This document shows, in pieces, positions 1,644 through 6,501 of a stretch of 64,000 nt of DNA. How positions within the stretch are numbered: the first letter of the stretch is position 1; each line of letters begins with the position of its first letter. The position numbers and the translations under genes were made by a program. This DNA is from Euzebya sp. (lineage in GTDB: Bacteria; Actinomycetota; Nitriliruptoria; Euzebyales; Euzebyaceae): NCBI RefSeq assembly GCF_964222135.1, contig NZ_CAXQBR010000021.1:1-64000 (forward strand), in the 5' to 3' direction. The notes under the pieces are model-generated. The model did no database searches. It saw only the letters and a list, made by a program, of their open reading frames with translations, and was not told where the DNA came from.

Positions 1644-1898
1644 ATGCGCAAGGGCATCCACCCCGAGTACCGCCCTGTGGTCTTCCAGGACCCGGGCGCG
1701 GACTTCGCGTTCATCACCCGCTCCACCATCGAGACCAGCGACACCATCGAGTGGTCCGACGGGAACACCTACCCGCTGAAGCGGATCGAGATCTCCGCGG
1801 CCAGCCACCCGTACTTCACGGGGCAGATGAAGATCGTCGACACGGCCGGTCGCGTCGACCGCTACAAGCGGCGCTACCAGCAGGGCAAGAAGGGCTAG
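1644..1898 (+). CDS. rpmE2: 50S ribosomal protein L31 type B
   Basis: This 84-residue protein has the type B L31 signature: [16 protein letters not shown] at the N-terminus and [21 protein letters not shown] near the C-terminus. It has no cysteines, unlike the zinc-binding L31 type A. It is the last gene of the L28-L33-L31 unit. Its stop codon sits inside a CTAG tetranucleotide (1895-1898) that also contains the stop of the convergent lnt gene, so there is no room for a terminator between the two. Confidence 0.95.
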
Positions 1899-3454
1899 CC
1901 AGCCCGCCGGCGGTCGACCACGACCGCCGCGAGGCCCAGCACCGCCACCGCCCCGGCGAGCCAGGCGACCGCGTCGCCGATCCGCATCGCCGGCGTCCTC
2001 CCCTCCACCAGGGGGACGTCCATCACCGGCGTGGCGCGTTCGAACAGTTCGGTGCGCTGGTGGACCACGCCCTCGGGGTCGACGAACCCCGAGATGCCGG
2101 AGATCCCGGCGTGGACGACCCAGCGCCCGGTCTCCACCGCGCGGACCTGGCTGAAGGCGATGTGCTGGGACGACATGGGCGTGTCGCCGAAGCTCGAGTT
2201 GTTGGTCGACACCACGAGCACGTCGGCGCCCGCGTGGACCTGGTCGCGCACCAGGTGGCCGAAGGTGTTCTCGAAGCAGATGACGTTGCCGACCGCCGCC
2301 CCGCCCACGTGCACGACCTGCGGGCCGTCGCCGGGGACCACGTCGCTCGGGATCTGCTCGAGCGGCGGGAACCAGTCGAGCCACGACCGCAGCGGGACGT
2401 ACTCGCCGAACGGCACCGGCCGGCGCTTGCGGTAGGACTCGCCGATCCCGTCGGCGGTGAACACGGTCATCGCGTTGAAGCGCGTGGCGGGCTCGGTCCC
2501 GTCGATCGACTCACCGGCCAGGATCGGGGCCGGGTCGACCAGGTCGACGCCGGCCTCGAGCATCGCCTCGACCTCCGCCCAGCGGGGTTGGCGGATGTCG
2601 CCGTCGAGGGCGTTCTCCGGCCAGATCACCACGTCGGGCGGATCGTCGGCGAGTGCCGCGGTCGCCTCCACCATCAGCTCGGCCACGCGGACGATCCGGC
2701 CGGTGTCGATCCTCGTGACCCCCGCCGCCGACGTCGCCCGGGTGTCGCCGGCCTGCACGATCCCGAACGAGGTCGTGCGCCCGGTGGGGGCGGGGGGTGA
2801 GCCCGCCAGCAGCACCGCGACGGCGAGCACGCCGAGGACGGTGAGGAGCGGGGTCCGGATGCGGCGGAACACCGCGTCGGCCGGCACGGCCTCCTCCCTC
2901 GCGGCCGCCCAGCCGGTCGCGGCGCCGCGGATCGCCTCCTCGACCGCGACGGCCACGGTGGCGAGGACCGCGCTGATGCCGGCCGCCCCGAGCGTCCTGG
3001 CGACCCCCAGCGCGAGCCCGCCGTCCGCTTGGGTGTAGGCGAGGCCACCCCACGCGAGCCCGCCGAACGGCCACACCCCTCGGAGCGCCTCCAGGCCGAC
3101 CCAGATCGCGACGGTGACCGCGGCCCGGCCACGACGCTCCCCGTAGGCGGTCAGGAGCGCGGTCACGACGCCGAGGTAGGCCGACTGCACCAGCGTCAGC
3201 AGCCCGAACGCGGCGTAGCCGAAGGGGATCAGCCAGTACAGCAGCGGACCGAAGAACGTCGCGCCCGCGAGGAACCCGTACCCGAAGGCGACGCGCGCGC
3301 GGACGCCGTCGCGCGCCAGCTCCCTGGACAGCGCGACGAGTGGGACCAGGGCGACGAACCCGGCGGCGGCCAGGCCGATCGGGGGGTGGCCGCCGTAGAG
3401 CAGGACCCCGGCGAGCAGGGCGAGGCCGGCCCGCCGGGCCCCGGGCCGCGTCAC
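1895..3454 (-). CDS. lnt: Apolipoprotein N-acyltransferase
   Basis: A 519-residue protein that N-acylates the lipid-modified cysteine of lipoproteins, using phospholipid as donor, on the outer face of the membrane. The N-terminal half holds about six transmembrane helices. The C-terminal half is a carbon-nitrogen hydrolase domain with the catalytic triad visible in context: Glu in [12 protein letters not shown], Lys in [15 protein letters not shown] and Cys in [13 protein letters not shown]. The start is a GTG 20 nt after the stop of the DUF4193 gene, so the two probably form an operon. In mycobacteria this enzyme is fused to the polyprenol-phosphate mannose synthase Ppm1; here the Ppm-type enzyme is a separate gene at 27.9 kb. 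The stop interlocks with that of rpmE2. Confidence 0.93.
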
Positions 3455-3474: not shown

Positions 3475-3948
3475 TCAGACGCAGTCGAAGCAGAGCATCT
3501 GCTCCGCGTCGGCCAGCTGGGAGGGCTTCTTCACGAGGAAGCAGGATCGGCAGGTGAACTCGTCGTCGCTGATCAGCTCGGGCTTGCGACGGGGCTTGGC
3601 GCCCTTCTTCGCGCCGCCCTCCTCCTCGTCGAGGGGCTGGACCTCCTCGTCCTCCTCGAGCAGCTCGTCGAGCTCGTCCTCGAGGTCGTCCTCGTCGTCC
3701 TCGTCGTCCTCCTCGAGCTCCTCGTCCTCGTCGTCGCCCTCGGTCTCGTCGTCGTCCTCGCTGACCTCGTCGCCGTCGAGGTCGTCGTCCTCGTCGTCGT
3801 CGTCGAAGAGGTCGTCGTCGTCGGACTCGATGTCGTCATCGAGGTCGTCGCCCTCGAACTCGAGGTCGTCGTCGAGGTCCTCGCCGTCGTCGAGGTCGTC
3901 AGCGAACTCGTCGTCGGCGCTCGTGGCCTCGAGGTCTGGGTCTGCCAA
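3475..3948 (-). CDS. DUF4193 zinc-binding protein with long acidic tract
   Basis: I chose the TTG at 3948 because a GGAGGAA ribosome site lies just upstream and a promoter precedes it; the longer ORF reads through that promoter. The 157-residue product ends in a four-cysteine module, DEFTCRSCFLV followed by MLCFDCV, the conserved C-terminus of DUF4193, a small actinobacterial family of unknown function usually about 100 residues long. Here the family's middle is expanded into an almost uninterrupted Asp/Glu tract (about residues 10-115), then a basic stretch KKGAKPRRKP. The acidic part is likely disordered and could bind cations, basic proteins or nucleic acid-binding partners; this is inference. 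It lies 20 nt upstream of lnt. Confidence 0.85.
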   Translation of the reverse strand: MADPDLEATSADDEFADDLDDGEDLDDDLEFEGDDLDDDIESDDDDLFDDDDEDDDLDGDEVSEDDDETEGDDEDEELEEDDEDDEDDLEDELDELLEEDEEVQPLDEEEGGAKKGAKPRRKPELISDDEFTCRSCFLVKKPSQLADAEQMLCFDCV

Positions 3949-4021: not shown

Positions 4022-4050
4022 TGTGTAGCCGCTCGGGGACGGGGCCGCAA
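4022..4050 (-). promoter_or_regulatory. Sigma70-type promoter for the DUF4193-lnt unit
   Basis: On the minus strand TTGCGG (4050-4045), a 17-bp spacer, then TACACA (4027-4022). The predicted start near 4015 gives a leader of about 65 nt before the TTG start. Confidence 0.55.
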
Positions 4051-4088
4051 CGAAATCGCCCGACGGGCCGAACCCGTCCGAAAACCGG

Positions 4089-4121
4089 CCCGGCCCCGAG
4101 GAGCAGGTCCTCGGGGCCGGG
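4089..4121 (-). terminator. Strong hairpin terminator
   Basis: A perfect 14-bp stem (CCCGGCCCCGAGGA paired across a 5-nt loop) followed on the minus strand by CCGGTTTTCGG. It lies between a promoter at about 4.40 kb and the DUF4193 promoter, so it would end the upstream minus-strand transcript. The short T-run makes it weaker than a classical intrinsic terminator. Confidence 0.65.
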
Positions 4122-4368
4122 TCCGTCGTGGGCAGCGGGCAGTTGGCACCGACAGGTCGCGGGTGGCGTGTCCGCGACCTCCGTTCTCTACTACGCCTGC
4201 TGGCCCCCACACCTGCCACGGCCTGACACCCGCGAAGGCGGGAGCAGGTCACACAGCGTCATACGCATGTCTGGAGAAGATCCCCCGCAGGGCCGCGCTG
4301 GGCCCTGCCTTCGTTCGATCTGCGCCACTTCCAGTCGTGCTCCGGTCCTTTGCCGCCGTGGCTTGACG
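4089..4368 (-). ncRNA. Candidate structured non-coding RNA, unassigned
   Basis: This stretch has no credible gene. It lies between a good minus-strand promoter (-35 4398-4403, -10 4375-4380) and a 14-bp hairpin terminator. Several nested helices can be drawn. A closing helix pairs 4355-4362 with 4215-4222 (GCCACGGC). Inside it, one arm pairs 4330-4334 with 4271-4275, 4317-4321 with 4278-4282 and 4301-4308 with 4287-4294. A second arm pairs 4248-4251 with 4224-4227 and 4238-4242 with 4229-4233. Outside it, 4172-4180 pairs with 4154-4162 (9 bp). I looked for RNase P, tmRNA and SRP signatures and found none. The strand call rests on promoter and terminator orientation. The RNA would be about 280 nt. 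Confidence 0.5.
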
Positions 4369-4374
4369 TCGGAG

Positions 4375-4403
4375 AAGGTACGGCGTGACCGGGGACTCGT
4401 CAA
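4375..4403 (-). promoter_or_regulatory. Sigma70-type promoter for the candidate ncRNA
   Basis: TTGACG (4403-4398) and TACCTT (4380-4375) on the minus strand with a 17-bp spacer; this is the best-matching -35/-10 pair I noticed in the window. Predicted start is near 4368. Confidence 0.6.
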
Positions 4404-4426: not shown

Positions 4427-4469
4427 GGCGCTGACCTGCGGTTTCGCGTTCGATCGTGGCCCTGACCTG
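4427..4469. repeat. Pair of 12-bp direct repeats upstream of the ncRNA promoter
   Basis: GGCGCTGACCTG (4427-4438) and GGCCCTGACCTG (4458-4469) differ at one base and are 31 bp apart, about three helical turns. They lie about 60-100 bp upstream of the predicted ncRNA start, where activator or repressor sites would be expected. The rest of 4470-4518 shows nothing I can name. Confidence 0.5.
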
Positions 4470-4962: not shown

Positions 4963-6501
4963 TCAAGCGTAGGACAGCAGGCCGAGTCCGTGGACGACCC
5001 GGCCGGCGACGGTCGTGAGCACGCACTGGCCCGGTGCCGCCGGGGTTCCCTCGAAGGCAGCGAGGTCAGCGCGGTTGCCGGCCCTGATCGCGCCGACCAT
5101 GGGTTGGCGGGCAGCCAGGCGGCCCCCCAGCGTCGCAGCGCGGAGGGCGGCCGTGGCGTCCATCCGCATGCCCTCCTCCGGGTGGCTCGCGGCCGACCGG
5201 ACCGTCGCCCACGGGTCGAGCGCCTGCACGTCGTCGGAGCCGAACGCGAGCGGCACCCCTGCGCGCTGGAGCACCCCCAGGGGGTTGGCGGCACGCGCCC
5301 GGTCGGCTCCGAGACGCCGCTCGTAGGTCCCGCCGACCGTCGCCAGGTCGAGGTCGTTGGCCGGTTGGGCCGTCACGACCACGCCGAGCGCGGCGAGGCG
5401 GCGGACGTCGGCGGCGTCGACCAGGGCGGCGTACTCCAGTCGGGGGCAGGTCCGCCGCAGCTGCTCGGGGCCGATCGCCGCCGCGACCGACTCGAACACG
5501 TCGATGGCCTGGCCGATCGCGCGGTCACCCATGGCGTGCAGGGCCACCTGGATGCCCTTGCGGGTCGCCTGCAGCGCGAACTCGCTCAGCTCCTCGGTGT
5601 CGTGGTACAGCTGCCCCGCGCCGGACTTGTCCGCATACGGGCTGGCGAGCGCGGCGCTGTGGCTCCCGATGCTGCCGTCGAGCAGCAGCGAGCCGCCGAT
5701 GCGGCGCAGTCCGCGCTCGGCGACGAAGTCGAGGTCGACGTCGCCCCAGTACGCCACGACCTCGATCGGCCAGTCGCCGGCCAGCCAGGCGTCGAAGTCG
5801 TCGGGTCCCATGCGGTGCGGGCCGCCCATCTCGTGGGCGGACGCCACCCCGGAGGCGGCGAGCTCGCGGACGGCGAGGCGCCGGGCGTGCCGCAGGGTGG
5901 CGCTCGGCAGCTGCGCCACGAACCACCGCTGCGCGACCTGCGCGGCCTCCTGGCGGAGGAGGCCCGTCGGCCGGCCGTCGCTGCCCCGGTCCACGCCGCG
6001 GGCCCGGCCCAGCGGCAGCGCGGTCAGCGACGTGCGGTCGACCACGACGCAGTGGCCGTCCGAGCGCGACAGCATCGCCGGTCGCCCCTCGGCCGCGACG
6101 GTGAGCTCGTCAGCGGTCGGCGCGCGGTGCTCGGGCCACCGGGTCTCGTCCCACCCGATCCCCCACAGCACCGGGTCGGGGGTGACGTCGACGTTGGCGC
6201 GGACCGCGGCGAGGCAGTCCTCGACCGACTCTGCGACCCCGAGGTCGAGGGCGCTGAGCATCAGCCCCAGGTTGGTCAGGTGCGTGTGGGCGTTGACGAA
6301 CGCCGGCTGCAGCGTCGTCCCGGTCAGGTCGAGGACCCGGCACCCCGGAGGGGTCACGTCGCTCGGGTCGTCACCCACCCACGCGATCCGGCGCCGACGG
6401 ATCAGCACCGCCCGGGCCGACGGCGCGGCGTCATCCAGCGTGACGACGTCGGCGCCCACGAGCAGCAGCGGTTCGTCGCGATCGGACGCGTCCACTCCCA
6501 T
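4963..6501 (-). CDS. Amidohydrolase family 3 (YtcJ-like)
   Basis: A 512-residue metal-dependent hydrolase of the amidohydrolase superfamily. The N-terminal beta-sandwich part (ADVVTLDDAAPSA...AWVGDD) leads to the metal-binding HTH of FVNAHTHLTNLG. Other family features are GGSLLLDGSIGSHSAAL, HAMGDRAI and GSDDVQALDPW near the C-terminus (the metal-binding Asp region). These proteins act on amide or ester bonds of small compounds; the substrate cannot be read from sequence. I chose ATG 6501, preceded by CAGCGTACTTCCCG-type non-coding sequence. The coupled downstream gene is an unknown 146-residue protein. Confidence 0.88.
   Translation of the reverse strand: MGVDASDRDEPLLLVGADVVTLDDAAPSARAVLIRRRRIAWVGDDPSDVTPPGCRVLDLTGTTLQPAFVNAHTHLTNLGLMLSALDLGVAESVEDCLAAVRANVDVTPDPVLWGIGWDETRWPEHRAPTADELTVAAEGRPAMLSRSDGHCVVVDRTSLTALPLGRARGVDRGSDGRPTGLLRQEAAQVAQRWFVAQLPSATLRHARRLAVRELAASGVASAHEMGGPHRMGPDDFDAWLAGDWPIEVVAYWGDVDLDFVAERGLRRIGGSLLLDGSIGSHSAALASPYADKSGAGQLYHDTEELSEFALQATRKGIQVALHAMGDRAIGQAIDVFESVAAAIGPEQLRRTCPRLEYAALVDAADVRRLAALGVVVTAQPANDLDLATVGGTYERRLGADRARAANPLGVLQRAGVPLAFGSDDVQALDPWATVRSAASHPEEGMRMDATAALRAATLGGRLAARQPMVGAIRAGNRADLAAFEGTPAAPGQCVLTTVAGRVVHGLGLLSYA

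Follow-up and report, generated by a model that had tools for sequence, protein, structure and literature searches.

A standalone, trans-acting RNA gene is probably what occupies about 280 nt on the minus strand of the Euzebya sp. sequence analyzed here (the window, 64,000 nt, positions 1 to 64,000 of contig NZ_CAXQBR010000021.1). The family to which it would belong is absent from Rfam, has two paralogues in the Actinomycetota and carries a putative site of protein docking. It is a new family within a known kind, the standalone structured bacterial RNA. Gene architecture, structure, distribution, synteny and the geometry of an upstream dyad are matters of observation, and this descriptive part (new family, covariation, distribution) holds whatever the function proves to be. 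A structured RNA with a near-invariant loop that keeps to two fixed genomic locations in different classes has apparently escaped notice in the phylum of Streptomyces. To our knowledge, actinobacteria lack Hfq, and a function has been assigned to few of their standalone RNAs.

Organization of the RNA gene

Read directly on the minus strand, the two promoter elements TTGACG and TACCTT are separated by a 17-nt spacer and followed by the RNA and a terminator hairpin (Table 1), so that the region is, as judged from its letters, an independent gene with its own promoter, RNA and strong terminator. The hairpin leads into the tail GGTTTTC at 4087-4081, and because this T tract is short (4 T) the terminator goes uncalled in a mechanical scan; mechanical scans call neither the promoter nor the terminator at the RNA gene of the window. 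The positions of both signals are kept in most relatives, and most relatives within the window's order have an equivalent GC-rich hairpin 3' of the core. No credible protein gene was found in the RNA region, the open reading frames crossing it being mechanical. The initial annotation, which had described an unassigned structured RNA flanked by its own promoter and terminator and devoid of any gene, was right in these respects. Shortly past the terminator the DUF4193 gene has a promoter of its own, whose consensus in relatives is TTGCG/A-17-TAnAAn.

Table 1. Features of the predicted RNA gene and its surroundings in the window
Feature	Position	Strand	Basis or remark
Predicted RNA gene, type A, ~280 nt	4087-4368	-	promoter, core and terminator; start deduced from sequence
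-35 element TTGACG	4398-4403	-	sequence; 19 of 21 loci have TTGAC in the corresponding position
-10 element TACCTT (TAnnnT)	4375-4380	-	sequence and relatives
Intrinsic terminator hairpin, perfect 14-bp, G+C-rich	4088-4122	-	sequence
Lineage-specific 5' domain, predicted fold only	4217-4368	-	not alignable between genera
Conserved core, ~90 nt, near 3' end	4123-4216	-	covariance model match, E 2e-11 with R1
P1 helix, 5' strand AGCAGGCG	4194-4201	-	covariation
P1 helix, 3' strand TGCCCGCT	4134-4141	-	covariation
Internal loop, 5' strand TAGTAGAGAAC, includes AGUA of putative loop-E module	4183-4193	-	
Internal loop, 3' strand GGTGCCAAC, includes SAA of putative loop-E module	4142-4150	-	
P2 hairpin (CGG-AGGTCGCGG / CCGCGACCT-TCG)	4150-4183	-	9-bp hairpin of the initial annotation
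9-bp helix AGGTCGCGG/CCGCGACCT	4180-4172 with 4162-4154	-	
Promoter-proximal half-site GCAGGTCA	4432-4439	-	intact; 28 nt from -35, in the 27-29 class
DUF4193 gene: acidic protein, DUF4193 zinc-ribbon C-terminus; downstream of RNA	3475-3947	-	
Separate promoter of DUF4193 gene, TTGCGG-17-TACACA	4022-4050	-	kept in relatives
lnt, apolipoprotein N-acyltransferase	1895-3454	-	syntenic neighbor of type A
Amidohydrolase gene (PF07969)	4963-6483	-	syntenic upstream neighbor of type A

A covarying core with an almost invariant internal loop

BLASTN searches in 61 relatives returned almost only matches to the terminator hairpin, with the exception of one match of 70% identity lying directly upstream of a DUF4193 gene, the same neighbor as in the window. 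Plain BLASTN would wrongly have suggested a private sequence; only DUF4193 synteny exposed the homologues. The regions upstream of DUF4193 homologues yielded a set of 21 loci that share, on the same strand and in the same order, a TTGAC-17/18-TAnnnT promoter, a variable 5' part, the core and usually a strong terminator. The core, read in these loci as 'GGCAGGCTCAGTAGAGAACG-hairpin-GGTGCCAACGGCCTGCC', consists of two covarying helices, P1 and the hairpin P2, around an almost invariant, asymmetric internal loop, 5'-YAGUAGASAAC / GGNNCSAAVG-3'.

Covariation was already evident in alignment A1 (20 sequences aligned by MAFFT without structure), where it reached 0.477 vs 0.193 in shuffled alignments (0/500), with slid controls at or below 0.184. 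Values of 0.554 in A3 (52 sequences) and of 0.624 vs 0.202 shuffled (0/500) in A5 (99 sequences) come from alignments fitted to the model and thus biased towards its structure. Double changes affect 12 of the 16 pairs of the core in A5. In the same alignment, loop columns 27-32, 34-36, 115-116, 119, 121-122 and 125 are 98-100% conserved, giving AGUAGA-S-AAC on the 5' side and GG-NN-C-S-AA-V-G on the 3' side. A27, G28, U29, A30, A121 and A122 fall within this range of conservation, position 120 is C or G, and columns 26/123, which flank AGUA/SAA, covary as G:A, C or T:C, and C:G. In two loci of the window's genus (L022 and L023) the 3' strand of the core has GCCACC where others have GCCAAC, and the 3' loop string occurs once more, as GGTGCCAACGACGGCAC, within the 5' domain, which resembles a partial duplication of the core.

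The folding energy is less telling. Of 200 dinucleotide shuffles of the whole predicted transcript, 198 are less stable than the transcript itself (z -2.8), a value to which the terminator contributes; energy alone would not convince, because the 5' domain and the core of the window, when folded separately, give z-scores of only -1.5 and -1.7, respectively. Single cores likewise reach only a modest mean z-score of -1.5, and the z-scores of the 5' domain in 19 relatives are heterogeneous around a mean of -1.4. Even members of the one order differ in the length and sequence of their 5' domain, which is largely absent in other classes. The fold of this domain was rejected as a conserved structure on account of the heterogeneous z-scores and the lack of comparative support. 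All the helices listed in the initial annotation do occur in the minimum-energy fold, but only its 9-bp hairpin, that is P2, belongs to the evolutionarily supported core and covaries, together with P1; the large 5' fold proposed there, with an 8-bp closing helix and a three-step arm, lies within the 5' domain and finds no such support. What decides the matter is comparison and not energy: the core can be traced, with covariation, through the phylum, and the observation of a structured RNA is therefore confirmed.

Distribution in the Actinomycetota

The first covariance model, R1, detected the core in 44 of the 61 relatives and in 49 of 396 genomes of the phylum. With R2 the number rose to 98/396 at E<=0.05, a search of one actinomycete class with R2 gave 93 of 247 genomes, and with R3, whose training set partly overlaps the genomes counted, 98/396 Actinomycetota genomes were positive at E<=0.001. 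Among the matches listed in a pattern scan of named genomes were Actinomadura, Microbispora, Nonomuraea, Microtetraspora and Herbidospora, as well as Serinicoccus, Ornithinimicrobium, Frankiales and Acidimicrobiales. When the first 100 pattern-scan loci listed were scored with R2, 91 passed, all of them from Actinomycetota or unnamed bacteria, and the nine that failed were exactly those of other phyla (Nitratiruptor, an alphaproteobacterium, Gloeocapsa, Desulfosarcinaceae, two Oscillospiraceae, Synechococcales, Clostridium and Clostridia). This split of 91 vs 9 is a clean specificity control for the model. The distribution is phylum-wide and, as far as tested, phylum-restricted, which extends the actinobacterial character that had been proposed from the single sequence. 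One genome of the window's order, G024, has two strong copies of the core (C57 26510-26606 and C28 2517-2612).

Two paralogues with conserved neighborhoods

Many genomes carry two copies of the RNA, usually one syntenic copy of each of two types, and each paralogue has its own conserved synteny. Type A, to which the RNA of the window belongs, is located between an amidohydrolase gene (PF07969) or a lysine-degradation cluster (kam/kal-like, named from sequence by eye) and lnt and/or ppm1, in the order amidohydrolase - RNA - (DUF4193) - lnt/ppm1, with rbpA often close by. In nearly every annotated case type A precedes lnt or ppm1 and points in the same direction. Type B is distinguished by GGGGAAG in the tip of P2 and resides near polA, a hotdog thioesterase gene, an ANTAR response regulator gene or liv transporter genes (loci L152, L154, L156, L158, L159, L161, L165, L172, L207 and L231). 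Type B often has a convergent gene on its downstream side and is therefore not generally a 5' leader.

These neighborhoods bear on the possibility of a cis-acting leader, a riboswitch or attenuator of the downstream envelope gene, lnt or ppm1. In such a leader, termination at P1 and the U-rich stretch would be regulated, with a metabolite or a protein as the ligand of the loop. The co-directionality of type A with lnt or ppm1 across classes fits with this idea, as do the U-rich stretch directly 3' of P1 in families f12 and f48 and the fact that in Actinomycetia the start of the gene can be only ~35-150 nt away. However, RNA and gene are kept apart in the window's clade by another terminator hairpin and a conserved separate promoter, and the same core in type B frequently faces a convergent downstream gene. 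One loop is thus found in two unrelated gene contexts, and a trans-acting RNA therefore fits better; a leader function is considered unlikely.

Relationship to known RNAs

Apart from a tRNA at 416-489, the window gave no match to any of 4227 Rfam families at the gathering score, and 12 type A and type B loci likewise returned only tRNAs. In the RNA region of the window a permissive scan yielded sub-threshold matches to VA, C0465 and microRNAs, which all fall on the terminator hairpin and its edge and were rejected; in other relatives such scans produced only sub-threshold matches of unrelated families. RNase P, tmRNA and SRP RNA, already discounted in the initial annotation, had no match with Rfam or ARAGORN models, and the covariance model of 6S RNA (RF00013) found nothing in the window or at homologous loci. 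In the literature searched, no RNA is described at the Streptomyces neighbor genes of type A, and among the matches listed the loop string was not found in a relevant context, with the proviso that subscription papers might still describe a transcript at one of the loci. The sRNAs annotated in S. lividans from Rfam include 6C, Ms_IGR-5 and several scr RNAs, none of which matches the new RNA by Rfam.

A resemblance to Ms1 or 6S RNA had been suggested, and it amounts at most to an analogy. Like Ms1 (MTS2823, scr3559; RF02566), the new RNA is a standalone actinobacterial RNA of the ~200-300 nt range with its own promoter, and both share the theme of a long hairpin interrupted by a conserved internal bubble; unlike it, Ms1 adjoins a HAD hydrolase gene and has another sequence, whereas the loop of the new core is invariant in sequence across classes. 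The Ms1 model has no match in the window region even at E 10. Its weak matches (26-30 bits) in two Streptomyces-like genomes fall beside 6C RNA, at the HAD-hydrolase locus to which Ms1 of S. coelicolor has been assigned in a report (PMC9130861). Both genomes carry type A elsewhere, adjoining ppm1. Conversely, R2 and R3 have no match at Ms1 / HAD-IB hydrolase (SCO3558/Rv3661 type) loci, and mycobacterial Ms1 sequences do not contain the AGUAGASAAC / CSAAVGG loop. Identity with Ms1 was rejected after being tested in both directions: there is no cross-match between models, the locus is different and the loop is absent. Genomes of family f29, which include the strongest Ms1 matches (e.g. G096 and G107), gave no match to the new RNA.

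With 6S RNA the new RNA shares the succession of helix, internal loop and hairpin and, in its case by prediction, transcription on its own; it differs in having no Rfam match and in its conserved AGUAGASAAC / CSAAVGG loop. 6C RNA (RF01066) is also conserved in actinobacteria and its function is not settled, but it has another place and structure, and in the Streptomyces-like genomes it scores at about its gathering cut-off next to Ms1. The livJ motif, according to the accessible text of its description, is found mostly in Streptomyces upstream of LIVBP genes, with the Shine-Dalgarno sequence in a bulge of P1 (Narunsky et al. 2024, PMC11109978). It is, like the new family, a structured RNA of Streptomyces revealed by comparative genomics, and some type B loci lie near liv transporter genes; unlike it, type A has DUF4193, lnt or ppm1 as the next gene and not LIVBP. 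On this comparison by description, an assignment of type B to the livJ motif is not supported by its context, which is often convergent with the liv genes. The accessible text of the same 2024 survey, which included S. avermitilis, lists the dauA, livJ, pntA and asfR motifs in Streptomyces, none of them with the context of the new RNA (PMC11109978).

Functional analogy without homology would still allow the internal loop to bind RNA polymerase, as core or holoenzyme, and to tune transcription in the manner of Ms1 or 6S RNA. The hairpin-loop-helix layout and the housekeeping promoter agree with such a role; moreover, type A is often near rbpA, the gene of an RNA-polymerase-binding protein, and family f29, strongest for Ms1, is not among the genomes listed with the new RNA. 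Against it, the core loop is short and sequence-invariant, which the bubbles of 6S RNA are not, homology to Ms1 is lacking and both RNAs coexist in two Streptomyces-like genomes. RIP-seq of S. coelicolor, in the accessible text of the study, names scr3559 and scr0792 and not the type A locus (PMC11077062). Polymerase binding is accordingly regarded as distinctly improbable. Very remote indeed is the notion that the region is no RNA, and that a strong terminator together with a DNA element conserved on other grounds (the end of a transposon, a REP-like repeat or a palindrome bound by a protein) accounts for it: GC-rich inverted repeats are common and the BLASTN matches in relatives are mostly terminator-like hairpins, but the compensatory changes in two helices, the invariant asymmetric loop on one strand, the usual limit of a single syntenic copy per type in a genome and the promoter upstream in most loci all speak against it. 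Of the refuting outcomes that had been named for the structured RNA, neither a lack of covariation nor a transposon end nor a known Rfam family materialized.

Upstream dyad and possible mode of action

In a search of 189 non-redundant RNA loci that tolerated variants of the half-sites, a complete dyad, TGACCTGC-N16/17-GCAGGTCA, was seen upstream of 30, of which 29 are of type A. The gap between dyad and -35 element is 8-9 bp in 15 type A loci and one type B locus, 18 bp in one case and 27-29 bp in nine, classes that differ by about one and two helical turns. Such helically phased distances imply an activator, and the simplest reading of the dyad is that of its putative binding site. In the window only the promoter-proximal half-site is intact, the distal half being not recognizable (dyad region 4432-4467). 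The shorter half pattern occurs often in these genomes; it is not diagnostic. A text search of the literature for the operator string retrieved nothing relevant.

For a trans-acting RNA gene, the following mode of action may be envisaged. A putative activator bound at TGACCTGC-N16-GCAGGTCA would switch type A on from its housekeeping-type promoter. The internal loop of the transcript fits a bulged-G (loop E, sarcin-ricin) module, AGUA/SAA, in which A27-G28-U29-A30 would be set against S120-A121-A122 and closed by the covarying 26/123 pair and by G31-C119 (A5 columns). The likeness to this module resides in AGUA facing (G or C)AA with a variable flanking pair; loop E is a structural module and not a family, and the remaining part of the loop (GASAAC / GGNNC) is specific to the new RNA. 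Less certainly, and judging from the kind of loop, such a core would dock a conserved actinobacterial RNA-binding protein or RNP, and the variable part would be carried by the lineage-specific P2 tip and the 5' domain. A bolder version, to which slightly less than an even chance is given, sees an ancestral RNA class of the Actinomycetota with two paralogues, a dedicated loop-E ribonucleoprotein and a dedicated activator, of its own origin and function and of an importance like that of 6S RNA or Ms1. If the core truly were that of a dedicated RNP, this would be a new class.

The position of type A, fixed beside ppm1 in tractable Streptomyces, offers a testable handle, and the phased dyad points to a regulator amenable to pull-down. 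In addition, the alignment and the model allow the immediate annotation of existing RNA-seq data. The dyad is also present upstream of the RNA promoter at L126, L136, L148, L185, L025 and L040, among others.
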